From: Haloterrigena salifodinae
Lineage (GTDB): Archaea; Halobacteriota; Halobacteria; Halobacteriales; Natrialbaceae
Assembly (NCBI RefSeq): GCF_003977755.1
Contig: NZ_RQWN01000001.1
Location: 186,001 to 250,000 of the forward strand
Length of the DNA: 64,000 nt
Direction: 5' to 3'
Part shown: piece by piece, positions 4,248-42,109 of the stretch
Position numbering within the stretch: position 1 is the stretch's first letter
Layout: each line of letters begins with the position of its first letter
Program-made: the position numbers and the translations under genes
Notes under the pieces: model-generated
What the model was told of the DNA's origin: nothing
Databases searched by the model: none
Seen by the model: only the letters and a program-made list of their open reading frames with translations

Positions 4248-4829
4248 TTACTCCTCGTCTTCCTCGACGACTTCGGGATCGCTCATCGCGCTCTGGAGGC
4301 TGTCGAGCCCGTTGATCCACTCCGTGACGAGACCGTACTCGAGGTCCTCGGCGACGGACATGTCAAGTTCCTCGCCGTCGATGATGAGCGTACCCGCTTG
4401 TGCGGCGTAGCCGAGCGCGGCGTCGAGATCCTCCTCGGCCTCGGCGTCGGCCGCGGCGCCGAGGTAGTCGCCGACGCTGCCCTCTTCGGCGGGGCCGCCC
4501 GCGATGTACTCCTCGGCGGCGAAGAAGACGCAGACGAGGCTCGTCTGGACGCCGTCGACGAGGATCAGTTTCTCCTCGTCCTCGATGTCGACCTCGCCGA
4601 GAACGATCTCGCGTACGTCGTTGATCTCCTCGAGCGCTTCCTCCTCGCCGAGTTCCCCGTCGTCGTAGGCGGCGACGATCTTGGCGATCGCGATCGCCGT
4701 GTCGTCCTGCAGGTTCAACAGGAGCCGGGCCGAGTCTTCGTCCTCCGGATCGATGTCTTCGTCCTTGATGCGGCCGATCCAGTTCTGCCAGCGTTCCTCC
4801 GAGTAGAACTCGGTCGGGGGATTGCTCAT
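4248..4829 (-). CDS. DUF2150 family protein
   Basis: 193-residue very acidic soluble protein. It begins MSNPPTEFYSEERWQNWIGR and continues with an acidic helical region (EDEDSARLLLNLQDDTAIAIAKIVAAYDDGELGEEEA). This matches my recollection of the archaeal DUF2150 family in length and opening sequence. No signal peptide or membrane helix. It sits 75 bases upstream of the TatD-type hydrolase (same strand, ending at 4904) and could share its transcript. Function unknown. Confidence 0.78.
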   Translation of the reverse strand: MSNPPTEFYSEERWQNWIGRIKDEDIDPEDEDSARLLLNLQDDTAIAIAKIVAAYDDGELGEEEALEEINDVREIVLGEVDIEDEEKLILVDGVQTSLVCVFFAAEEYIAGGPAEEGSVGDYLGAAADAEAEEDLDAALGYAAQAGTLIIDGEELDMSVAEDLEYGLVTEWINGLDSLQSAMSDPEVVEEDEE

Positions 4830-4903
4830 ACAGACACCTACACCGGCCGCTTGAAATGCCTTTCTCTACTCTACGCCGAGCTTACTGAACCGAAACGTCG
4901 GCT

Positions 4904-5755
4904 TTAGGCCCGCTCGAGTGTCCCTTCCGTGTCAATTCCGTACACGCGTTCCGGCGTCTCGACGTGGGCGATACGGACCGCATCCTCGTGGCCGTCCTCG
5001 AGCAGCCAGCGGACTCGCCGGGGCACCGTCTTCGGGCCGAGGACGGCGCCGGGGCGGTCCGGATCATCGATGTAGTCGGTCTCCATCAGGAACGGCTCGC
5101 CGCGCTCGGCGGCGGTCTCGAGGCGATCCTTCTCGCTCATCACGCTCGGGATCGGGCCCTCGAGGCGACCGCTCGCGTAGTGTTTGACTACCTTGTGCGC
5201 CGGGAGGCCGGCTTCCTCGGCCCAGTCGGCCACCTCGGTCATGTCCTCGCTGGCTTCGGCGTGTAACTGGACGGCGCAGTCCAGTTCGGCGCCGCGCTCG
5301 AAGGCCCGGCGCATGACCGCGTTCGAGGCCGCCCACACGTCGTCGTCGACCTCGTAGTGGGGGCGACCAGACTTCAGCGCCAGCGCCTCGCCGGACTCGA
5401 CGTACTCCGCGGCGACGTCGATCCCCGCCTGCATCAGGTCCCGCGCGTCGTCAGGACTGAAGCCGCGGTCGTCGACGAGCCGCGTGATCAGTCCGGGGTG
5501 GACCCCCAGGACGGGCCAGGCCCGCCCGTCGAGTTCGCTCGAGGCCTCGTCGACGATCTCGATCGTCCGCTCGAAGACCGCACGGAAGTCCTCGCCGGTC
5601 TCGGCCTCGACGCCGAGGTGCCAGGAGGGTTTGTTTACGACCAGCAGGTGGGTGCCACCGAGGCGAGCGAAGTCGCGGACAGCGTCGATGCCGCGGTGGT
5701 TGTCCGGATCGAGGTGGAGGTGGTTGTCGAGGACCGGCGTCTCGTCGTCGAGCAT
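4904..5755 (-). CDS. TatD-type metal-dependent hydrolase
   Basis: 283 residues, TIM-barrel amidohydrolase fold. The metal-binding HxH is at the start of the barrel (DNHLHLDPDNH, near residue 10). Further family features are PVLGVHPG (near 95), VQLHAEAS (near 185), VVKHYASG (near 205) and the late metal Asp in METDYIDDPDRPG (near 240). The frame is open further upstream to 5905, but that part reads as low-complexity leader, so the ATG at 5755 is used. Relatives include DNases and uncharacterised hydrolases; the archaeal group to which this seems to belong has no confirmed substrate. The zinc-ribbon gene upstream is on the same strand, 68 bases away. Confidence 0.88.
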   Translation of the reverse strand: MLDDETPVLDNHLHLDPDNHRGIDAVRDFARLGGTHLLVVNKPSWHLGVEAETGEDFRAVFERTIEIVDEASSELDGRAWPVLGVHPGLITRLVDDRGFSPDDARDLMQAGIDVAAEYVESGEALALKSGRPHYEVDDDVWAASNAVMRRAFERGAELDCAVQLHAEASEDMTEVADWAEEAGLPAHKVVKHYASGRLEGPIPSVMSEKDRLETAAERGEPFLMETDYIDDPDRPGAVLGPKTVPRRVRWLLEDGHEDAVRIAHVETPERVYGIDTEGTLERA

Positions 5756-30929: not shown

Positions 30930-32468
30930 TCACCGCCGCCAGAACGCGCCGGTGAAGATGACGAGCGCTGGAATGATTTCGAGGCGGCCGATCCACATCA
31001 GGAAGATCATCACGAGTTTCGAGGAGTCAGGGAACTCGCGGTAGCTGCCGAAGGGACCGAGTTCGCCGAAGCCCGGTCCGATGTTCCCGATCGTCGCGAT
31101 GCTGGCGCTGATCGCGTCGATCGGTTCAAGCGAGACCGCGCCGCGGGTCGAGTCGACGGCGATGAACACTGTCGCGACCACGAAGATGAATAGGTACAGC
31201 AGGGTGAAGCCGAGGACGCCGCGGATGACGTCCTCGTCGACGACGTAGCCGCCGAGGCGGATCGGTTTGACCGCTTCGGGGTGGGCCGCGGTAAACAGCT
31301 CTCGGCGGGTGACCTTCAGGACGACTAGCCAGCGGATGATCTTGACGCCGCCGCCGGTCGAGCCGGCGCAGCCGCCGATGAACATCGCGACGAGGAGGAC
31401 GGTCTGGGCGACCGGTCCCCACTCCGCGAAGTCGCTCGTCGCGTACCCCGTCGAGTTCAACAGCGAGACGGTCTGGAAGGCCGCGTGGCGCAAGGCGCTC
31501 TCCCCGTACCCCTCCGTCGCGCCGCCGAGTTCACCCAGCGGCGGGGCGCTGCCGCTGTAGAGCAACGCGGCGACGATCGCGGTCACGACGGCGATCGCAC
31601 CCGCGTAGGCTCGAAACTCGGTGTTCTGGAAGAGCCGCCCGGGCTCGCCGTCTAACACGTACCAGAACAGCGCGAAGTTGGTGCCGGCGATCGCCATGAA
31701 GGGGATGACGACCCACTGCACGGCGGCGGAGAACGCGGCGACGCTGTTCGCCTCGGGCGAGAACCCGCCGGTCGGGAGCGTCGTGAAGCCGTGGGCGACC
31801 GCGTTGTAGAAGCCCATGTTCGGCGCCACCCCCGCCAGGTGGAGGCCGTACAGCAGGGCAATGTAGACGATCGTGAATCCGAAGTAGACGAGCCAGAGGA
31901 TGCGGGCCGTCTCGGCGATCTTCGGCGTCAGCTTCTGGAGCTCCGGTCCCGGCGCCTCCGAGCGGATCAGCTGCGCGCCGTTGACCGCCAACTCCGGCAG
32001 GATCGCGATCATCAACACGATGATCCCCATCCCACCGAGCCACTGGGTCAGCTGGCGCCACATCATGAGGGCGTGGGAGTGTTGCTCGACGGAAATCTCG
32101 GCCATCACGGTCGCCCCGGTCGTCGTGAACCCGGACATCGACTCGAACAGCGCGTTCACCGGGTGTCTGAGCGCCGAATCAGTTCCGTAGCCGGCGATGA
32201 CGTACGGGATCGCTCCGACAACCGCGACGGCCAGCCACGAGAGCGCGACCAGCAACAACGCCTCTCGCGGCTGCAGATCGGGGTCCGGATCGAGCCGCTC
32301 GAGGCCGAACCCGATCGCGACGGTGAGCACGATCGTCGCCGCGAACACGAGGAAGTGTTCCCCGTAGATGATGGCGACGACGACCGGGACGAACAGCGTG
32401 AGGGCGAGATACTTGAGAACGGTTCCAGTCAGCGCGACGCTCGCCTGCCAATCGACACGTATATTCAT
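30930..32468 (-). CDS. trkH: TrkH family potassium uptake pore (copy 1)
   Basis: 512 residues, about ten to twelve membrane helices in four pore repeats. Each repeat carries the filter glycine: MSGFTTTGATVM (first), TTLPTGGFSPEA (second), SLLNSTGYATSDF (third) and TIGNIGPGFGEL (fourth). Signature TGYAT/NIGPG wording is that of the TrkH/TrkG group, distinct from the two pores at 34670 and 37488. It should admit potassium when a TrkA-type RCK ring binds its cytoplasmic face. Convergent with the GH43-like gene, 22 bases apart; upstream is a divergent promoter region. Confidence 0.95.
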   Translation of the reverse strand: MNIRVDWQASVALTGTVLKYLALTLFVPVVVAIIYGEHFLVFAATIVLTVAIGFGLERLDPDPDLQPREALLLVALSWLAVAVVGAIPYVIAGYGTDSALRHPVNALFESMSGFTTTGATVMAEISVEQHSHALMMWRQLTQWLGGMGIIVLMIAILPELAVNGAQLIRSEAPGPELQKLTPKIAETARILWLVYFGFTIVYIALLYGLHLAGVAPNMGFYNAVAHGFTTLPTGGFSPEANSVAAFSAAVQWVVIPFMAIAGTNFALFWYVLDGEPGRLFQNTEFRAYAGAIAVVTAIVAALLYSGSAPPLGELGGATEGYGESALRHAAFQTVSLLNSTGYATSDFAEWGPVAQTVLLVAMFIGGCAGSTGGGVKIIRWLVVLKVTRRELFTAAHPEAVKPIRLGGYVVDEDVIRGVLGFTLLYLFIFVVATVFIAVDSTRGAVSLEPIDAISASIATIGNIGPGFGELGPFGSYREFPDSSKLVMIFLMWIGRLEIIPALVIFTGAFWRR

Positions 32469-32665
32469 ACTCTCAGATCTGGCTTCGCTCGAGCCGGAAT
32501 CGTGGTCGGGGAAACTCGACGTCGGTACATAATTCCACTGAAGTGGTCCGTCGCCGAGACCGACGGCGTCGCCGGACGTCGCTACTCGACGCCGCGACCG
32601 GGACGCGAGCCGCCGACTATGTCAACCGACCATCTATATGCACGGGTCGCGTAGGTTCACCCGGC

Positions 32666-32905
32666 ATGTCTCGACTTCCAAGCATCCGGCACCCGGTCTC
32701 GTTCTTCGACGTCTTTACCGTTACCGCCGTATCGATCGTCGTCGTCGCCGCGGTGCTGACGGTCTGGCACGGGACGTTCGTCCGCACGGAGATGGCCGTC
32801 TTCACCGTGCTCGTCTTCGGCTGGGTCGCCTGGGCCATCAACCGGATCCTCGAGGAATCGGTCCACAGTTCCCAGCGGGATCGGCGACGCAACTGGAGAC
32901 GGTAA
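32666..32905 (+). CDS. Small two-helix membrane protein
   Basis: 79 residues from the ATG at 32666. Two hydrophobic helices (FTVTAVSIVVVAAVLTVW and MAVFTVLVFGWVAWAINRIL), then a very basic tail (SSQRDRRRNWRR). No known family recognised. Located in the potassium island between trkH and the Lrp-type regulator, so a role near potassium channels is possible but unproven. Confidence 0.65.
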   Translation: MSRLPSIRHPVSFFDVFTVTAVSIVVVAAVLTVWHGTFVRTEMAVFTVLVFGWVAWAINRILEESVHSSQRDRRRNWRR

Positions 32906-32958
32906 CGATCCGTGACGCGCCGGTGCTGCTCGATGGCGAAGCGCTCGCTCCGTCCCCG

Positions 32959-33702
32959 TTAGCGGCGATCGGTTTCGAACGCGTCGAACGTGGAATCGGT
33001 GAACTCGCCTCGAGAGAGGACGGTCAGGATGTCGCCGGCCCGGATCTCGCTTTCGCCGGTCGGCGTCAGCACGGCGTCGTCGCGTTCGATCGAGACGACG
33101 AGCACGCCGTCCTCGAGGACGTCCTCCTCCCCAGCGCGTTCCAGGGTCATGCCGGCGACCGGCGCGTCGTCGTCGACGGTCAGTTCGACGACCTCGTTGC
33201 CGCCGGTGAGGCTGACGTAGTCCGAGAACTGCTGGTGAGTCTCGGCCGGGCCGAAGGGCTGGTAGGACTGAAACTGGTCCGTTCGGACCATCTTCTCGTC
33301 GTCGATCTCGAGGCCCAGAGCCGCGAGCTCCCGGCCGACGTCGTTGATCGCGTCGACGTCGTCGCCGACGGCGAGGACGTGGAGGTTCTCCTGGCCGGCG
33401 ACGAACTCCCGAACGTTGACGACGCCGGCGATCGTCCGCGACTGCTGGGCGAGGCGTGCGCGCTCTTCGACGGGCGCCGTCGCCACGTACAGCGTCGTGA
33501 GCATGCCGTCGGCGGCGTCGAAGTTCACGTTCGCGTGATAGCCGCTGATGATTCCGGCGTCCTCGAGCTGATTGATCCGGTTTCGAATCGTCGCCGGCGA
33601 GACGCCCACCTCCTCGGCGATCATCGGGGCGGACGTGTTCCGCGCGTCGTCCATCAGCGCGTGGATGATCCGTTTGTTCACTTCGTCGAGACGAACGCTC
33701 AT
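32959..33702 (-). CDS. Lrp/AsnC-type regulator fused to a TrkA-C (RCK C) domain
   Basis: 247 residues from the ATG at 33702. N-terminal DNA-binding domain of the Lrp/AsnC type (VNKRIIHALMDDARNTSAPMIAEEVGVSPATIRNRINQLEDAGIISGYHANVNFDAADG). A middle domain follows (VNVREFVAGQENLHVLAVGDDVDAIND), which may be Lrp-like ligand-binding. The C-terminal 80 residues match TrkA-C: VVELTVDDDAPVAGMTLERAG, VLVVSIERDDAVLTPTGESEIRAGDILTVLSRG. TrkA-C binds small ligands and dimerises in potassium gating rings. The fusion and the location between trkH and trkA genes suggest a regulator of potassium uptake that senses a ligand like c-di-AMP or a nucleotide, although which ligand is not visible. Confidence 0.9.
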   Translation of the reverse strand: MSVRLDEVNKRIIHALMDDARNTSAPMIAEEVGVSPATIRNRINQLEDAGIISGYHANVNFDAADGMLTTLYVATAPVEERARLAQQSRTIAGVVNVREFVAGQENLHVLAVGDDVDAINDVGRELAALGLEIDDEKMVRTDQFQSYQPFGPAETHQQFSDYVSLTGGNEVVELTVDDDAPVAGMTLERAGEEDVLEDGVLVVSIERDDAVLTPTGESEIRAGDILTVLSRGEFTDSTFDAFETDRR

Positions 33703-33922
33703 ACCCCCGACTACGGCCACGGGACTGAAGGCTCCTGCTTTTTGATCGCTCGCCCGGACACTACTAGTGACGTGACTGCACTCCGGCCGAGTCGGGAGGT
33801 AGCGCTATCGAGGGGGACCGTCCGATCCCTGATCGCCGGCGGCCCCGTGGTGTCCGTGAACACTGCACTGGTGAAGGACAAACCGCTCGAGTCGGCCGGG
33901 CTCTGTTCGGAACCGAGTCGGA

Positions 33923-33936
33923 CAGACTATAACCGA
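33923..33936 (+). promoter_or_regulatory. Possible promoter of trkA copy 1 (TATA-like)
   Basis: ACTATAACC at 33926-33934 lies about 70 bases before the ATG at 34002. At the equivalent place in copy 2 the box reads ACTGTTCACC, so the TATA-like core is gone. This is compatible with transcription of copy 1 from here with a leader of about 45 bases. Confidence 0.4.
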
Positions 33937-34001
33937 GAACGAACAAGCTGTTGTCATACTCTCGAATTGCGTCACGAACGATTCCCCGAGGGATACTGAA
34001 G

Positions 34002-34673
34002 ATGTATATCGTCATCATCGGCGCCGGAAGCATCGGCTCGAATCTGATCGATCTCGCGGTCCGCGACGGCAACGACGTCGTCGTTATCGAGACCGACGAA
34101 CAGCGAGCGAACGACGTGGCTTCGACGTACGACTGTCTCGTTCTCAACGCCGACGCGACCAACCACGACACGCTCCGAGACGCGGACATCGACCGAGCGG
34201 ACGCGGTCATCTCGACGACCGACATTGACGCGGTCAACATCATGGTGATGTTGCTCGCCCAGGAACACGACGTCCCGAACCTCGTCAGCGTCGTCCACGA
34301 TCCCGAAAACCTGCCCGTCTTCGAGAAGATTGGCGTCAACTTAATCGAGAACCCCCAGCGGCTGATCGCCGACTACCTCTATCACTCCGTGCGATACCCC
34401 GACGTCAGCGACTTCATCGACCTCGACGACGAGACCGAACTCGTCGAACTCACCGTCACTAAGGACGCCCCGATGCACAACCAACTGCTTTCGACGGCGA
34501 AGGAAGCCGGCACGCTTCCCGAGGGCTGTCTCGTCGTCGCCCTCCAGCGGAACGGTGAGATCCGGGCCCCGAGGGGCGAGACGACGATCCGAGCCGGCGA
34601 CAAGGTGACGGTGTTCACCGACGACGCCACGCTGGCCGACGCGGTCGCGGCGTTCACCGGCGACCATCCATGA
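34002..34673 (+). CDS. trkA: TrkA-type potassium channel RCK subunit (copy 1)
   Basis: 223 residues: one RCK_N domain and one RCK_C domain, the short TrkA/KtrA form. The Rossmann start MYIVIIGAGSIGSNLIDLAVRDGNDVVVIETDE has the GxGxxG at 7-12 and the acidic residue after strand 2 (Glu30) that contacts the NAD or ATP ribose. The RCK_C part is ELVELTVTKDAPMHNQLLSTA, CLVVALQRNGEIRAPRGETTIRAGDKVTVF. It overlaps the trkH start by four bases (ATGA), so the pair is translated together. Compared with copy 2, residues 1-130 differ at only two positions but residues 131-223 at about nineteen. Confidence 0.95.
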   Translation: MYIVIIGAGSIGSNLIDLAVRDGNDVVVIETDEQRANDVASTYDCLVLNADATNHDTLRDADIDRADAVISTTDIDAVNIMVMLLAQEHDVPNLVSVVHDPENLPVFEKIGVNLIENPQRLIADYLYHSVRYPDVSDFIDLDDETELVELTVTKDAPMHNQLLSTAKEAGTLPEGCLVVALQRNGEIRAPRGETTIRAGDKVTVFTDDATLADAVAAFTGDHP

Positions 34674-36217
34674 GAGTCCGGTATTCGGCGGTGGGGCGAG
34701 ACCTCGGCCGAATCGTGCAGGTCGTCTCCCTGATGTTGCTCGTCTCGATCCCGATCGCCGCCATTCACCGCGAGTTCTACGCGATCCCCGCCTTCGTCGG
34801 CTCCGCCCTTCTGATGGGCGGAATCGGGCTCGGTCTCACGCGGCGATACCAGGACGTGTCCGACACCGGTCGACTCGAGGCGATGGTCACGGCCGCGGCC
34901 GCGTGGGGGACTGTCGGCGTGTTCGGCAGCCTCCCCTTCCTGCTGATCGCGTGGACGATCGCGGTCGACCCGTATCCGGCATGGGCGAACACGCCCGAGA
35001 TGTCCGAAACAGTCGCCGTCTTCCGGTATCCGTTGAACGGAATCTTCGAGAGCGTGAGCGGCTTCACCAGCACCGGACTGACGATGGCCGTCGTCGAGGA
35101 GCAACTGCCCCGGTCGCTGCACTGGTGGCGCTCCTTTACCGAGTGGATCGGCGGCGTCGGCGTCATCGTGTTGACGGTCGCCATCCTGGCGCGGCCGGGC
35201 AGCGGCTCGCTCACTCTCTATAAGAGCGAGGCCCGGTCGGAGAAGATCCACCCCAGTATCGTCTCGACGGTGATGGAGATCTGGAAGATCTACGTCGGAT
35301 TCACCCTCGCCGGCATCGTCCTGTTCCTCCTCGCCGGGATGCCCCTGTGGGACGCGATCAACCACGCGATGACGGCCATCGCGACCGGTGGGTTCTCCGT
35401 CCACGCCGACTCGATCGGCCACTACGGCAGTCCCGTTATCGAGTACGCAGTCATCCCGATGATGGTCGCGGGCAGCATCGCCTTCCCCGTTCACTACCTG
35501 CTACTCAAAGGGGAACTCAAGAACTTCTACAAAGACGTCCAGACCCGCTGGGTGTTCATCTGGTTTGCCGTCGGCTCGCTCGTCCTGATGGCGCTGCTCT
35601 TGATTGGAGACCAGTACGAGGCGCTCGAGGAGACGTTCCGAGTCGCGCTGTTCCAGTTCGTCTCCGCGACGTCCAACGCCGGGTTCGGTACGGTGGCGAT
35701 CGGAAGCGGTACCGAACGCGTCTGGACGGCCGGCCCGACGCTGTTGCTCTGTGTGGGTATGCTTACCGGCGCCGCGGCCGGGTCGACCGTCGGCGGGCTC
35801 AAGATCATCCGCGTCATCACGCTCATCAAGGGGACGGTCTGGCAGATCCGGAGCGTCTTTACGCCCGCCAGCGCGATCCGACGGCTCCGGATCGGCGAGC
35901 GGAGCCTCGATCAGTCCCAGGCCCAGCGCGAGTACACCGAGGCGACCGTCGTCTTCGTTCTCTGGATCGTCGGCCTCGCGGTCGGTGTCGCGGTCTTTCT
36001 CTGGACGCTGCCGCCCGAGTACCCCCTCGAGTACGTCATTTTCGAGGTGATGAGCGCACAGAGTACCGTCGGTTTGGACGCGGGAATTACCGGCCCGGCG
36101 ATGCCGATCGCCGCCAAGACGGTACTGATCTTCAACATGTGGATCGGCCGCCTCGAGATCATCCCCGTCGCCGTGTTGCTGGGTGCGTTCTTCCAGCAAC
36201 TCGATCTCTACCGGTAG
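34670..36217 (+). CDS. trkH: TrkH/KtrB-type potassium pore (copy 2)
   Basis: 515 residues, pore with four P-loops. Filter glycines are SGFTSTGLTMAV, IATGGFSVHADS, SATSNAGFGTVAIG and AQSTVGLDAGIT. All four being Gly is as expected for potassium selectivity rather than sodium. The wording is KtrB-like and differs from trkH copy 1. Forms an operon with the trkA at 34002 and is about four-fifths identical (by eye) to the pore at 37488. Confidence 0.95.
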   Translation: MRVRYSAVGRDLGRIVQVVSLMLLVSIPIAAIHREFYAIPAFVGSALLMGGIGLGLTRRYQDVSDTGRLEAMVTAAAAWGTVGVFGSLPFLLIAWTIAVDPYPAWANTPEMSETVAVFRYPLNGIFESVSGFTSTGLTMAVVEEQLPRSLHWWRSFTEWIGGVGVIVLTVAILARPGSGSLTLYKSEARSEKIHPSIVSTVMEIWKIYVGFTLAGIVLFLLAGMPLWDAINHAMTAIATGGFSVHADSIGHYGSPVIEYAVIPMMVAGSIAFPVHYLLLKGELKNFYKDVQTRWVFIWFAVGSLVLMALLLIGDQYEALEETFRVALFQFVSATSNAGFGTVAIGSGTERVWTAGPTLLLCVGMLTGAAAGSTVGGLKIIRVITLIKGTVWQIRSVFTPASAIRRLRIGERSLDQSQAQREYTEATVVFVLWIVGLAVGVAVFLWTLPPEYPLEYVIFEVMSAQSTVGLDAGITGPAMPIAAKTVLIFNMWIGRLEIIPVAVLLGAFFQQLDLYR

Positions 36218-36819
36218 CAGCATCCGGTCGTCTTCGAATCGACCGGTCGACGATGTCGACGGACACTCGCCCTCGAGCCGAGGGGAGACCCCGCCGACGG
36301 CCGCTCATTCCTGCGTCGTGCGGTATCGTCGTCGGCCGCGTTTGGCGGAATTCGATCGATCTGGCCCATCACGAACGCGACGAGCGGCGGGTCCGTCGAC
36401 CGCGACCGGCGGAGTGTGGACGCTCGAGGCGACGGTCGACGCCGGGGACGCTCATCGAAATTCATGCTCTTAACCCAGGTCCGGAATGCGTAAATGTGCT
36501 AGGTTTATATTATCGAATCCGAAACGAGGTCAATGATGCACCGATGTCGACAGCGACGACGGGACTGCGGCGCCGCGGGCGCCCGGTCCGGTCGCGGCGG
36601 TGACCCGACGACTGACTCGAGCACGAGGCACGCGGACGTTCTCGCGCTCGAGGACGCCGTCGACGAAAGCGTCGCCGCGGCCGTCGGGATTCGACCACGG
36701 CCCGGCGGTCACCGCCGCCGACTGCTGTCGGGATCCGATTCGTACAGACTGTTCACCGAGAGCGAACGTCCGGTCGTCGTTTTCTCGCGACCGGGTTCGC
36801 AGGAGACCTAGATTCAACG
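36218..36819. other. 602-base spacer between the two trkA-trkH modules
   Basis: An AT-rich promoter-like stretch, GGTTTATATTATCG, at 36502-36515 has the strongest TATA box of this region and sits about 310 bases before the second trkA. Short open frames (for instance 36533-36811) are Arg-rich, basic and lack family features, so I do not call a gene. From 36745 on the sequence is similar to the leader of trkA copy 1. Nothing else, such as a transposon end or tRNA, is visible. Confidence 0.5.
36502..36515 (+). promoter_or_regulatory. TATA-like promoter candidate for trkA copy 2
   Basis: GGTTTATATTATCG, within a short AT-rich window in otherwise GC-rich sequence. If used, the transcript for trkA copy 2 would carry a leader near 290 bases, which is unusually long in haloarchaea and could hold regulatory structure. 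Confidence 0.35.
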
Positions 36820-37491
36820 ATGTATATTGTCATTATCGGCGCCGGAAGTATCGGTTCGAACCTGATCGATCTCGCGGTCCGCGACGGCAACGACGTCGTC
36901 GTCATCGAGACCGACGAACAGCGAGCGAACGACGTGGCTTCGACGTACGACTGTCTCGTACTCAACGACGACGCGACCAACCACGACACGCTCCGAGACG
37001 CGGACATCGACCGGGCGGACGCGGTCATCTCGACGACCGACGTCGACGCGGTCAACATCATGGTGATGTTGCTCGCCCAGGAACACGACGTCCCGAACCT
37101 CGTCAGCGTCGTCCACGACCCCGAAAACCTGCCCGTCTTCGAGAAGATCGGCGTCAACTTAATCGAGAACCCCCAGCGGCTGATCGCCGACTACCTCTAT
37201 CACTCCGTGCGGTATCCGGGCGTCACCGACTTCATCGACCTCGACGATCACACCGAACTCGTCGAACTCACCGTCACCGAGAATGCCCCGATGGCCGGCC
37301 AACCGCTCTCCTCGGCGAAGGAAGCCGGCGCGCTCCCCGAGGGCTGTCTCGTCGTCGCCCTCCAGCGCGACGGCGACATTCGCGCGCCTCGCGGCGGGAC
37401 GACCGTCCGCGCCGGCGATCACGTGACCGTCTTCACCGACGACGCCGCCTTGGATGACGCCGTCCGGGCGTTTACCGGCGAGCAGCCATGA
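36820..37491 (+). CDS. trkA: TrkA-type potassium channel RCK subunit (copy 2)
   Basis: 223 residues with RCK_N and RCK_C domains as in copy 1. Rossmann GAGSIG and Glu30 are unchanged. Among residues 1-130 only Ala50 to Asp and Ile75 to Val differ from copy 1. The RCK_C region (ELTVTENAPMAGQPLSSAKEAGALPEG, RDGDIRAPRGGTTVRAGDHVTVF) carries about nineteen changes, several at likely ligand-facing loops. The trkH partner starts with a four-base overlap. Confidence 0.95.
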   Translation: MYIVIIGAGSIGSNLIDLAVRDGNDVVVIETDEQRANDVASTYDCLVLNDDATNHDTLRDADIDRADAVISTTDVDAVNIMVMLLAQEHDVPNLVSVVHDPENLPVFEKIGVNLIENPQRLIADYLYHSVRYPGVTDFIDLDDHTELVELTVTENAPMAGQPLSSAKEAGALPEGCLVVALQRDGDIRAPRGGTTVRAGDHVTVFTDDAALDDAVRAFTGEQP

Positions 37492-39035
37492 AGGCCCGCT
37501 ACCCGGTAATCGGGCGGGACGTCGGCCGGATCCTTCAGGTGGTCTCCCTGATGCTGCTGGTCTCGATCCCGATCGCCGCCATCCACCGCGAGTTCTACGC
37601 GATCCCCGCGTTCCTCCTCTCGGCGGTCGTGATGGCCGGGCTCGGAGTTGCGCTCGCTCGCCGATACCGCGGCGCGGCCGACCCCGGAAAGCTCGAGGCG
37701 ATGATCACCGCGGCCGGTTCCTGGGCAGCGGTCGGCATCCTCGGCGGGCTCCCGTTCCTGCTGATCGCGTGGACAATCGCGATCGATCCGTACCCCGCGT
37801 GGGCGAACACGCCGCCGCTGGACAACACGACGGACATCTTCCTGAACCCGCTCGACGCGGTGTTCGAGAGCATGAGCGGCTTCACCGGGACGGGGCTGAC
37901 CGTCGCCGCGGTCGAGGAGAAGTTACCGCGGTCGTTACACTGGTGGCGCTCCTTTACCGAGTGGATCGGCGGCGTGGGCGTCATCGTACTGACGGTCGCC
38001 ATCCTCGCGCGGCCGGGCAGCGGCTCGCTGACGCTCTACCAGAGCGAGGCCCGATCGGAGAAGATCCACCCGAGCATCGTCAATACGGTCACGGAAATCT
38101 GGAAGATCTACCTCGGGCTGACGCTCGGCTCGATCGCGCTGTTCCTCCTCGTCGGCATGCCGGCCTGGGACGCGATCAACCACGCGATGACGGGGATCGC
38201 CACCGGCGGGTTCTCCGTCCACGCCGACTCGATCGGCCACTACGGCAGCCCCCTCATCGAGTATGCAGTCGTCCCGGTGATGGTCGCGGGCAGCATCGCG
38301 TTCCCGATCCACTACCTGATTTTCAAGGGCGAACTCGAGAACTTCTACACGGATGTCCAGACGCGCTGGGTCTTCCTCTGGTTCGGGATCGGTTCGCTGG
38401 CCCTGACCGCGATCCTCTGGGCCAACGGACAGTACGAGACGTTCGAGGAGACGTTCCGGATCTCGCTGTTCCAGTTCGTCTCCGCGACGTCGAACACCGG
38501 TTTCGGTACGGCGACGGTCGGCGAGGGCACGGAATCGGTCTGGTCGGCCGGAGCGACGTTCGTGACGTGTCTGGGAATGCTGACCGGCGCCGCGGCGGGG
38601 TCGACGGTCAGCGGTCTCAAACTCGTCCGCGTCATCACGCTCGTCAAGGGGACGGTCTGGCAGATCGGTTCGGTCTTCCAGCCGGACAGCGCGATTCGTC
38701 AATTCCGGATCGGCAAACGGAGTCTCAGCGAGGACCAGTTCCAGCGGGAGTACACCGAAGCGGCGGTCGTCTTCCTGCTCTGGATCACGTTCCTCGCCGT
38801 CGGCGTGACCGTCCTCCTGCGGACGCTCTCGCCGGCTCATCCCGTCGAGTACGTCATCTTCGACGTGATGAGCGCCCAGAGCAACGTCGGGCTCGACTCG
38901 GGGATTACCGGACCGGGAATGCCCGACACCGCGAAGGCGATGTTGATAATTAACATGTGGGTCGGCCGCCTCGAGATCATCCCCGTCGCCGTGTTGCTGA
39001 GCGCGGTCTTCCGACGGATCGGCCTCTACCGCTGA
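37488..39035 (+). CDS. trkH: TrkH/KtrB-type potassium pore (copy 3)
   Basis: 515 residues. Filter segments SGFTGTGLTVAA, IATGGFSVHADS, SATSNTGFGTATVG and AQSNVGLDSGIT all keep the glycine. Differences from copy 2 include Ser to Gly beside the first filter and Ala to Thr in the third. These could tune permeation slightly but do not predict a different ion. Operon with trkA copy 2. Ends two bases before the converging double-length TrkA gene. Confidence 0.95.
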   Translation: MKARYPVIGRDVGRILQVVSLMLLVSIPIAAIHREFYAIPAFLLSAVVMAGLGVALARRYRGAADPGKLEAMITAAGSWAAVGILGGLPFLLIAWTIAIDPYPAWANTPPLDNTTDIFLNPLDAVFESMSGFTGTGLTVAAVEEKLPRSLHWWRSFTEWIGGVGVIVLTVAILARPGSGSLTLYQSEARSEKIHPSIVNTVTEIWKIYLGLTLGSIALFLLVGMPAWDAINHAMTGIATGGFSVHADSIGHYGSPLIEYAVVPVMVAGSIAFPIHYLIFKGELENFYTDVQTRWVFLWFGIGSLALTAILWANGQYETFEETFRISLFQFVSATSNTGFGTATVGEGTESVWSAGATFVTCLGMLTGAAAGSTVSGLKLVRVITLVKGTVWQIGSVFQPDSAIRQFRIGKRSLSEDQFQREYTEAAVVFLLWITFLAVGVTVLLRTLSPAHPVEYVIFDVMSAQSNVGLDSGITGPGMPDTAKAMLIINMWVGRLEIIPVAVLLSAVFRRIGLYR

Positions 39036-39036
39036 C

Positions 39037-40371
39037 TCACAGCGCGGCCGACACTTCGCTGAGGGCGGTCGCGTCGACGAACAACACGACGTGGTCGCCG
39101 GCGCGGGGAACCGTCGTCCCGCGGGGCGTGACGAGGTCGCCGCCGCGAGAGATCGCGCCGATGACGACGCAGTCGGGGAGCCCCTCCATCGACTTCGCGA
39201 TCTCCCGGCCCGCCAGGGCACTGTCGTCGTCGAGTTCGACCTCGATGACCTCGGCGCGGTCGTGTTCTAACATCGCGATCTTCTCGGTCTGATCCGTCCG
39301 CGTAAAGCGGACGATCTCCTCGGCGGTCTCCTCTCGAGGGTTGATCGCGACGTCGATCCCAACGGCCTCGAAGAGGTCGGTGTACTCGGTGTTCTCGATG
39401 ATCGCGACGGTCCGGTCGACGCCGACCCGCTGGGCCAGCAGCGAGACGAGCAGGTTCTTCTCGTCGCTGTCGAGGGCGGCGACCACGATGTCGGCCTCGT
39501 CGACGTGCTCGCGGGTGAGGAAGTCGGTGTCGGTCGCGTCGCTTTGCATGACGAACGTGTCCGGCAGCGCCTCGGCCATCTCGCGGGCGCGCTCCTGGTC
39601 CCGCTCGATTAGCCGCGGCTCGAAGCCGTGGGCCTCGAACTCCCGGGCGGCCTGGAACCCGATCTCGCTGCCGCCGACGATGACCACGTCGTCGGTGCTC
39701 GAGGTCGTGTCCGGAACCATCGCCATGGCGAACTCCTTGACGGAATTGGGGCTCCCGATGACGACGATCCGGTCGCCGGCACGGAACTCGGTGTCACCGC
39801 GGGCGACGATCAGTTGCTCCTCCCGAAAGACGGCGGCGAACGTCATCGAGTCGTACCGGTCGGCTTCCTCGACGCGCTTGCCGACCAGCGGGCTCTCCGG
39901 GCCGATCTCGAACTCGGCCATCCTGACGAGGCCACCGGCGAACGTTTCGACGTCCTGGGCCCGCGGGAAACCGGAGATCCTGAAGATCGTCTGGGCGACC
40001 AGCAGATCCGTACAGACCATGAAATCCACACCGAAGGCGCCCCGGGACCCCTCCCAGGTGTTCAACAGCGTCCGGCGTCGGACGCGCGCGATGGTGAACG
40101 TCTCGCTGGCGGTCTTGGCGGTGCCACAGACGACGATGTTGGTCTCGTCGCTGTCGGTACAGGCGACGACCAGATCCGCCCGCTCGAGGCCAGCGTCCCG
40201 GAGTGTCTCGAGTTCCGTCCCGTCGCCCTGAACCGAGAGCACGTCGTACGTGTACGTGATCTCGTCGGCGAGCGCGGGATCGCGTTCGACAACCGCGACG
40301 TCGTGGGTATCCGCTAAGTTCGCGGCGATCATCTGGCCGACCTGTCCCGCGCCAACGATCAGTACATACAT
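39037..40371 (-). CDS. trkA: Double-length TrkA (two RCK units)
   Basis: 444 residues from the ATG at 40371. Two consecutive RCK units: GAGQVGQMIAANLADTHDVAVVERDP (residues 7-32) with a C domain around 140-215, then VIVGGSEIGFQAAREFEAHGFEPRLIERD (about 230-258) with a C domain in the last 80 residues. This is the classic TrkA arrangement for a TrkH partner such as copy 1 and contrasts with the short TrkA proteins beside it. The first RCK_N has GAGQVG and an acidic ribose-binding Glu; the second has the degenerate GGSEIG. Confidence 0.95.
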   Translation of the reverse strand: MYVLIVGAGQVGQMIAANLADTHDVAVVERDPALADEITYTYDVLSVQGDGTELETLRDAGLERADLVVACTDSDETNIVVCGTAKTASETFTIARVRRRTLLNTWEGSRGAFGVDFMVCTDLLVAQTIFRISGFPRAQDVETFAGGLVRMAEFEIGPESPLVGKRVEEADRYDSMTFAAVFREEQLIVARGDTEFRAGDRIVVIGSPNSVKEFAMAMVPDTTSSTDDVVIVGGSEIGFQAAREFEAHGFEPRLIERDQERAREMAEALPDTFVMQSDATDTDFLTREHVDEADIVVAALDSDEKNLLVSLLAQRVGVDRTVAIIENTEYTDLFEAVGIDVAINPREETAEEIVRFTRTDQTEKIAMLEHDRAEVIEVELDDDSALAGREIAKSMEGLPDCVVIGAISRGGDLVTPRGTTVPRAGDHVVLFVDATALSEVSAAL

Positions 40372-40593
40372 GGCTGGGACCTCCGTCGCTTGTACATCTT
40401 TCCCGGACGTTTTGGGGGCGGACCGATAGGCGTTTCGACGATCGGTCACCGCTCTAGAACGTCGCCAGCGCGGTCGAAAGCCTCCGCTCGAGGGATCGCG
40501 ACGCGCCGTCTCCGCTCGCGTATTGCTCAGGCGCGCGTGCCAGCCGGCATCGTTCGAGAACGCATATACGACCGCGGCCTCCAAGGGAGAGAC

Positions 40594-41481
40594 ATGACTG
40601 ACAGTACCGGAGCGGACGACGGCTGGTTCGGGGCTCTCGCATCCGACGGTCCCGAGGCGGCCGCGACGGCAGTTCGCGAGGGGTCCGCTGACGATCCCCA
40701 CGACTGGCCCGCGCTCGCGGTCGAGGCGGGGGTCGTCGACGACGAGGAGGAGTACTACGACGCCCTGCGGGCCGCGACGACGGCGGCGACGAGGGCAGCG
40801 GTGACCGAGCGCGAGGCGGCCGACGACCGCCAGCTCGTCCACGCGGTGCGGGCGATGGACGACTGCACGCGGACCGCGAACGAGCTCGCCGAACGGCTGG
40901 CCGAGTGGGCGGGGACCGTCGACCCCGACGCCGGCACGGGCGTCGACTACGCCCGCGAACTGGCGAGTCGAGACGAAACGCCCGACGCCGCGCCGGACGC
41001 GCTCGTCTCGCTGGCCGAGCGCGTCGCCGGTCTCGCCGACGAGGCCGACGAACTGCGCGAGTACGTCGAGCGGACGGCGCCGACGGTGGCGCCCAACCTC
41101 GCCGCGATGGCCGGCCCCGTCCTCGCGGCGCGGCTGCTCTCGCTGGCCGGCGGCCTCGAGAGTCTGGCCAAGAAACCCAGCGGCACGGTTCAGGTGCTGG
41201 GCGCCGAGGACGCGCTCTTCGCCCACCTGCGCGGGCACGCGCCCTCGCCCAAACACGGGATCATCTACACGCACGACGCGGTCCGGGGCACCCACCCCGA
41301 CGAGCGCGGCTCGGCGGCCCGCGCGGTGGCCGGGAAACTCGCCATCGCCGCCCGCGTCGACCACTACTCGGGCGAGTTGAAGCCCGAACTCGAGGCCGAA
41401 CTCGAGGAGCGTATCGAGACGATTCAGGCGCGGACGGACGACGGCGCTGGCGACGAAAACGGAGGTTCCGACGATGAGTGA
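40594..41481 (+). CDS. nop5: Nop5/Nop56-type box C/D ribonucleoprotein core protein
   Basis: 295 residues. The C-terminal Nop domain is recognisable: APTVAPNLAAMAGPVLAARLLSLAGGLESLAKKPSGTVQVLGAEDALFAHLRGHAPSPKHGIIYTH, where GAEDALFAHL and PKHGIIYTH are signatures. The N-terminal part has the acidic coiled-coil region. With fibrillarin and L7Ae it forms the archaeal box C/D complex that guides 2'-O-methylation of rRNA and tRNA. The fibrillarin gene overlaps its end by eight bases, as usual in archaea. Confidence 0.95.
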   Translation: MTDSTGADDGWFGALASDGPEAAATAVREGSADDPHDWPALAVEAGVVDDEEEYYDALRAATTAATRAAVTEREAADDRQLVHAVRAMDDCTRTANELAERLAEWAGTVDPDAGTGVDYARELASRDETPDAAPDALVSLAERVAGLADEADELREYVERTAPTVAPNLAAMAGPVLAARLLSLAGGLESLAKKPSGTVQVLGAEDALFAHLRGHAPSPKHGIIYTHDAVRGTHPDERGSAARAVAGKLAIAARVDHYSGELKPELEAELEERIETIQARTDDGAGDENGGSDDE

Positions 41482-42109
41482 ACAGCTTCCGGACGGCGTC
41501 GAGCGCCGCGCGTTCGACGGGAGCGAGCGACTCGCGACGCGGGGAGAGCCGGTCTACGGCGAACCGACCGAGGGCGAGTGGCGCGCGTGGAACCCGAACC
41601 GCTCGAAGCTCGGGGCGATGCTCGAGTTGGGGATGGACACCAGCCTCGATGGCGGCGAGACGGTCCTCTATCTGGGCGCAGCCAGCGGAACGACCGTGAG
41701 TCACGTCGCGGACTTCGCTGGCCCGACCTACGCCGTCGAGTTCGCCGCGCGACCGGCGAGGGATCTGCTCGAGGCGGCGGAGAGCCGACCGCGGCTCTTC
41801 CCGCTACTCAAGGACGCCCGAAAGCCCGAGACGTACGCCCACGTCGTCGAGTCGGACGTCGACGTGCTCGTTCAGGACGTCGCGACCCGAGGGCAGGCGC
41901 GGGTGGCCCTCGAGAACCGGCGCTTCCTGGCCGACGACGGGCGATTGTTGCTGGCCGTGAAGGCCAGAAGCGAGGACGTCACGCGCGATCCCGACGACGT
42001 CTTCGCGGACGTGCGCGAGGAGCTCGAGGAAGGATACGAGATCGTGGAGACCGAACGGCTCGAGGACTATCACACGGACCATCTCGGGGTCGTCGCGCGA
42101 CCGCGATGA
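41474..42109 (+). CDS. flpA: Fibrillarin-like rRNA/tRNA 2'-O-methyltransferase
   Basis: 211 residues. SAM-binding motif VLYLGAASGTTVSHVADFAG (about 56-75), TYAVEFAARPARDLLEAAESR, then DVLVQDVATRGQARVALENRRFL and LLLAVKARSEDVT with the catalytic Lys. It is the methyltransferase of the box C/D complex and overlaps nop5 by eight bases. Confidence 0.97.
   Translation: MSEQLPDGVERRAFDGSERLATRGEPVYGEPTEGEWRAWNPNRSKLGAMLELGMDTSLDGGETVLYLGAASGTTVSHVADFAGPTYAVEFAARPARDLLEAAESRPRLFPLLKDARKPETYAHVVESDVDVLVQDVATRGQARVALENRRFLADDGRLLLAVKARSEDVTRDPDDVFADVREELEEGYEIVETERLEDYHTDHLGVVARPR

Follow-up and report, generated by a model that had tools for sequence, protein, structure and literature searches.

The window analyzed here, a 64,000-nucleotide stretch of the Haloterrigena salifodinae genome, contains a 9.5-kb potassium-uptake island with three intact TrkH pores (H1, H2, and H3), two single-RCK TrkAs (A2 and A3), a double-RCK TrkA (AA), a regulator of the Lrp type that carries an RCK_C domain (LrpRCK), and a small membrane protein (Table 1). 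The analysis of reading frames and Pfam matches confirmed the gene inventory of the first-pass annotation: all eight genes were intact and located where it had placed them. It had also suggested looking for the group in related genomes, and the same gene order was found again in three other Haloterrigena species. The whole genome encodes only four TrkH pores; thus, the presence of three of them within 9.5 kb is not due to chance. The fourth is 56% identical to H1, and a search of the 10 kb around it found none of the RCK gene types looked for. Neither KdpA nor KUP was detected in a search of the genome. Haloarchaea hold molar K+; together with the lack of KdpA and KUP, this suggests that K+ uptake in H. 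salifodinae is probably carried by Trk systems.

Table 1. Genes and other features of the island, with positions in the window.
Feature	Position	Strand	Evidence and remarks
H1, core-system TrkH pore, 512 aa	30930-32468	-	Pfam TrkH 3e-73; docking motif TPKI
Small membrane protein, 79 aa	32666-32905	+	Frame and hydrophobic stretches; divergent from H1
LrpRCK, 247 aa: Lrp/AsnC winged helix, RAM-like middle domain, RCK_C	32959-33702	-	Pfam, model, fold search
Candidate usp scar ITENEQAVVILS, resembling the Usp C-terminal end	33929-33970	+	Alignments by eye; short, tentative
A2, single-RCK TrkA, 223 aa	34002-34673	+	TrkA_N 1e-27, TrkA_C 6e-14
H2, cassette 1 TrkH pore, 515 aa	34670-36217	+	Pfam TrkH 2e-78; docking motif HPSI
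Candidate TATA element TTTATATTA, upstream of the former usp / A3-H3 unit	36504-36512	+	Cross-genome conservation
usp remnant, start codon and internal part lost	36653-36808	+	Match to L014 usp; four-genome alignment
A3, single-RCK TrkA, 223 aa	36820-37491	+	TrkA_N 2e-27, TrkA_C 1e-15
H3, cassette 2 TrkH pore, 515 aa	37488-39035	+	Pfam TrkH 2e-71; docking motif HPSI
AA, double-RCK TrkA, 444 aa, putative H1 partner	39037-40371	-	NCBIfam TrkA PRK09496, 724 bits

According to Pfam, AA carries TrkA_N and TrkA_C twice in one chain, and A2 and A3 carry them once each. A2 and A3 overlap the starts of H2 and H3, respectively, by 4 nt, and the ends of AA and H3 are convergent and 7 nt apart. Orthologues of H1 in four congeners were 91–97% identical to it. 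The small membrane protein gene stays beside H1 in congeners and in other genera; a Pfam search of its product revealed no family above the cut-off. The candidate TATA element was kept in four Haloterrigena genomes, and H. salina differed by one base. The island is adjoined at 40588-42109 of the window by NOP5-like and fibrillarin genes, the archaeal box C/D RNA-methylation pair.

Pore architecture and pairing with TrkA

All three pores matched the Pfam TrkH family with 241–265 bits (cut-off 27). The two pore subtypes recognized in the first-pass annotation were retained, with 34% identity between H1 and H2 and 74% between H2 and H3; however, its KtrB-like label for copy 3 had to be abandoned. 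KtrB lacks the N-terminal part found in TrkH, whereas this part, which precedes the four pore repeats, was present in H1, H2, and H3. The three proteins aligned with the whole Vibrio TrkH, from residues 6–10 of their own and 4–8 of the Vibrio sequence. Among solved structures, only TrkH entries, and no KtrB structure, matched H2 and H3 at E<=0.001. The matches to TrkH structures had E values of 3.8e-77 for H1 (4j9u, residues 8-511), 8e-45 for H2 (residues 6-508), and 3e-40 for H3 (residues 10-510). In the alignments with Vibrio TrkH, all four pore loops of every pore carried the filter glycine, loop 4 of H2 and H3 (VGLD) being only loosely aligned. Judged by these alignments, each of the two subtypes has the architecture of a TrkH pore.

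In Vibrio TrkH, T175 and R177 make the HN1 contact with TrkA, and R100 of Vibrio TrkA is needed for ATP-driven opening (PMC6987127). The TPRI contact site corresponds to TPKI in H1 and to HPSI in H2 and H3, while the R100 position was occupied by R98 in AA and by histidine in A2. Because of these differences at the contact site and at R100, the core and accessory systems may answer nucleotides differently.

The first-pass annotation had regarded the pairing of pores and RCK proteins as not obvious, but gene order in the family resolved it. We searched 125 genomes with H2, AA, and H1 and combined the positions; the counts below are among the matches listed. AA and an H1-type pore were located no more than 12 kb apart in 82 cases, and in 80 of them AA was upstream on the same strand (within 100 nt in 32 and within 1 kb in 15), in agreement with the earlier suggestion that the double TrkA fits copy 1. 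Where an H2-type pore lay within 12 kb of AA, it was on the opposite strand in 36/40 cases. A short TrkA gene lay directly upstream of an H2/H3-type pore in 39 of the 42 usable named loci. Thus, by gene order, double TrkA goes with H1-type pores and single TrkA with H2/H3-type pores.

In one genus (g15), 17 genomes among the matches listed had a cassette between AA and H1, with a gap of about 3.2 kb, and 11 had no cassette and a gap of 124–642 nt. In locus L112, the order was H1, the small gene, a short trkA, an H2-type pore, and AA; in Haloterrigena G001, which has no cassette, it was H1, the small gene, the gene for an APC-Usp permease, and AA. The simplest reading is that a cassette was inserted into a core locus of AA and H1, the direction of change being presumed; the alternative is cassette loss in some lineages. 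In two congeners, the island contained a gene for an APC permease fused to Usp domains (L016 9427-11739, minus strand; L097 1251-3563, plus strand), which is missing there in the window.

The accessory cassettes and their putative regulator

LrpRCK was found within 3.5 kb of the cassette in 24/42 named loci, being divergent and upstream in 16, and was absent from this distance in the other 18. A usp gene was upstream of the cassette in 13 of the 42. Both usp genes of the window were decayed, one ahead of each cassette, and the first is a tentative scar. The remnant ahead of A3 was 73% identical to the intact usp of L014 over 59 aa (E 2e-21). Intact usp genes before A3 were present in G002 and G004 (Pfam Usp 4e-9 in G002), with positions 5297-5734 of L014 and 5288-5725 of L016, both on the minus strand. 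What looked like a palindrome ahead of A2 was not kept as a regulatory candidate since the stretch coincides with the probable usp scar.

The earlier description of LrpRCK as an Lrp-type regulator fused to TrkA-C agreed with Pfam matches to the AsnC-type HTH and TrkA_C; however, the protein has RCK_C only and no RCK_N. Its relatives were present in 244/293 genomes of the order. The structural model (mean pLDDT 72, pTM 0.45) contained a winged helix-turn-helix, a RAM-like middle domain, and RCK_C, with residues 140-167 forming a linker that is disordered or uncertain. The middle domain had no Pfam RAM match; in the model its strands and helices followed the RAM order, and the model aligned with Lrp structures over ~150 columns with a low TM-score. 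Foldseek retrieved Lrp structures (E 5e-8), a Thermotoga RCK_C (1.5e-5), and BusR (2.7e-5). When its RCK_C was compared with solved structures, the result was armadillo-repeat noise plus weak RCK_C matches, from which no ligand could be read. The search for a shared palindromic operator yielded nothing convincing, the pairs that exceeded shuffled controls being weak. The genome encodes a diadenylate cyclase domain; in Haloferax volcanii, c-di-AMP occurs and is essential under standard growth (PMC6741144). Most likely, LrpRCK would regulate the cassettes, its presumed targets, in response to a putative RCK_C ligand.

Histories of the pores and of the trkA halves

On a phylogenetic tree of 51 H2/H3-type pores, H2 belonged to a nine-member clade with pores of several genera of Natrialbaceae (support 99/98), while H3 belonged to a clade of 24 that included pores of Halobacterium, Halorubrum, and Haloarcula, among others (support 100/99). 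H2 and H3 are thus members of two old pore clades. Since the clades are separate and supported, the two pores did not arise by recent duplication in place, and a recent tandem duplication of the whole cassette was rejected. The possibility of a plain duplication remnant, raised in the first-pass annotation, also disagreed with the intactness and conservation of all pores.

The trkA genes of the two cassettes gave a different picture. The DNA identity of A2 and A3 was 96% in the first 133 codons (about 34002-34400 and 36820-37218), where 131/133 residues were identical, versus 82% in the rest of the gene and 79% between the pores. Of the four-fold sites, 58/64 were identical in the first ~133 codons versus 176/264 in the remainder of trkA together with trkH (Fisher p 8.8e-5; segment permutation p 0.0024). 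The contrast had the same direction and was weaker in G002 (p 0.022, permutation p 0.16) and in G004 (p 0.010), where the best segment was long and ran into trkH. On the tree of the N-half, trkA copies grouped by species, not by pore; on the tree of the C-half, the copies of the window and G002 grouped by cassette. AU tests of the halves (14 rows) rejected by-cassette grouping of the N-half across three species (p 0.0002, 0.003), whereas by-cassette orthology across the two nearest species survived (p 0.28). For the C-half, the tests rejected by-genome grouping of the copies in the window and in G002 (p 1e-5, 3e-11) but not of those in G004 (0.27), and by-cassette grouping across three species was mildly disfavored (0.03–0.04).

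The trkA copies of H. salina did not enter the conversion tests, as this part of the draft is corrupt: in L015 (7529-8380 and about 4604-5290) the copies contained an internal duplicated stretch, and one had an unknown base. A Halovivax trkA (L025, 12355-13197) was over-long in a similar way. These over-long copies are most likely assembly faults at near-identical repeats.

The identity of the 5' halves could in principle reflect silent-site or RNA-level constraint with no gene conversion, and the N-half was indeed the slower-evolving part of trkA in all genomes. However, orthologues of the window and G004 were identical at only 45/62 and 44/62 four-fold sites of this half, compared with 55–58 of 63–64 between copies within a genome; since the orthologues differ, silent-site constraint does not explain the pattern. 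The trees, moreover, put the copies together by species, and we consider this explanation extremely improbable. As judged from these sites and trees, at least one trkA conversion occurred after the split from G004. More than one conversion is likely, short of proof in view of the surviving by-cassette orthology and the G002 permutation value. In Halopiger djelfimassiliensis, trkA genes on different contigs (L109 3215-3880 and L110 3093-3758) were 96.5% identical in the N-half and 90.9% in the C-half at the nucleotide level, and the trkH pair was 73% identical in DNA. No clear trkA homogenization was seen in other two-cassette genomes.

Proposed working of the island and known systems

Taken as a whole, the island probably combines a single core Trk system with two accessory cassettes, paired as AA-H1, A2-H2, and A3-H3. 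AA would gate H1, its presumed physical partner, as in bacterial TrkA-TrkH. Each short TrkA would form a single-RCK ring and gate the TrkH-type pore encoded just downstream, again as a presumed physical partner. The accessory module, LrpRCK next to (usp)-trkA-trkH, occupies the interval between AA and H1 and is on the opposite strand. A division of labor among the systems may be supposed. Within TrkHA, ring formation, nucleotide binding, and pore contact are all functions of the N domains, and the C domains are flexible (PMC6987127). The homogenized half of trkA is the N domain; gene conversion would thereby have acted on the ring, nucleotide, and pore-docking part of A2 and A3. Two readings of its cause remain, namely passive conversion of the most similar stretch and selection for two ring subunits that remain compatible, be it mutually or with both pores.

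The second of these leads to a rather unlikely alternative in which A2 and A3 form mixed octamers serving both H2 and H3, RCK_C sets the ligand response, and conversion is selected. It is consistent with the ring-forming and pore-contacting role of RCK_N (PMC6987127) in a half with 131/133 identical residues, with the HPSI motif common to H2 and H3, with the mixed two-subunit ring known from Thermotoga (PMC4380455), and with the homogenized trkA genes of Halopiger, which are unlinked and lie beside differing pores. However, conversion may be passive wherever copies are alike, and other two-cassette genomes retain different trkAs. That two pores of old clades share a common mixed ring, whose subunits are kept interchangeable by recurrent N-half conversion while the RCK_C halves diverge, seems unlikely to us. 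The cassettes could also be a redundant duplication heading for loss, with AA-H1 as the sole working system, as the decay of both usp genes and the absence of cassettes from some congeners might suggest. Against this, the three pores and all TrkAs are intact, and H3 and H2 are conserved at 91–97% and 87–90%, respectively, in three other species, and the amino acid identity is no lower than that of the DNA; we therefore regard such redundancy as very unlikely.

The reading of one core system with two accessory cassettes leaves an island that is real, conserved, and ordinary in kind, with gene order as the answer to its pairing puzzle. All of its parts belong to known families, and the most unusual one is the half-gene concerted evolution of trkA, a natural case in which the contact half alone of a channel regulator evolves in concert. 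The comparison also provides a testable RCK-to-pore rule and the description of an accessory module of regulator and cassette.

The core system resembles the TrkA-TrkH of Vibrio parahaemolyticus (PDB 4j9u, 6v4j-6v4l; PMC6987127), which AA (3e-59, residues 1-440) and H1 match over their full length. As in bacteria, the AA and H1 genes are adjacent in many genomes of the family; in the island, however, 6.6 kb and two cassettes separate them. A2 and A3 have one RCK per chain, as do KtrAB and Thermotoga TrkA TM1088 (PMC4380455), and A2 matched TM1088B (2e-23) and KtrA (1e-14). Therefore, an octameric ring is expected for A2 and A3, on a pore that, unlike in KtrAB, is TrkH and not KtrB. Lrp proteins with TrkA-C are known from Halobacterium (Trh2; PMC4236453) and Haloferax mediterranei (PMC8229911), and they combine an HTH with TrkA_C as LrpRCK does; a RAM-like domain may be a further common feature. 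BusR (PMC8517857) likewise joins a DNA-binding domain to RCK_C, but the DNA-binding domains are of different families. Trk cassettes beside a core trkH have already been described in Halorubrum ezzemoulense as the TrkAH homeocassettes of islands 42 and 43 (PMC11078007), where accessory trkAH with a short TrkA likewise lie beside core trkH/trkA. The Haloterrigena island differs from them in its two tandem cassettes, LrpRCK, decayed usp genes, and conservation across species.
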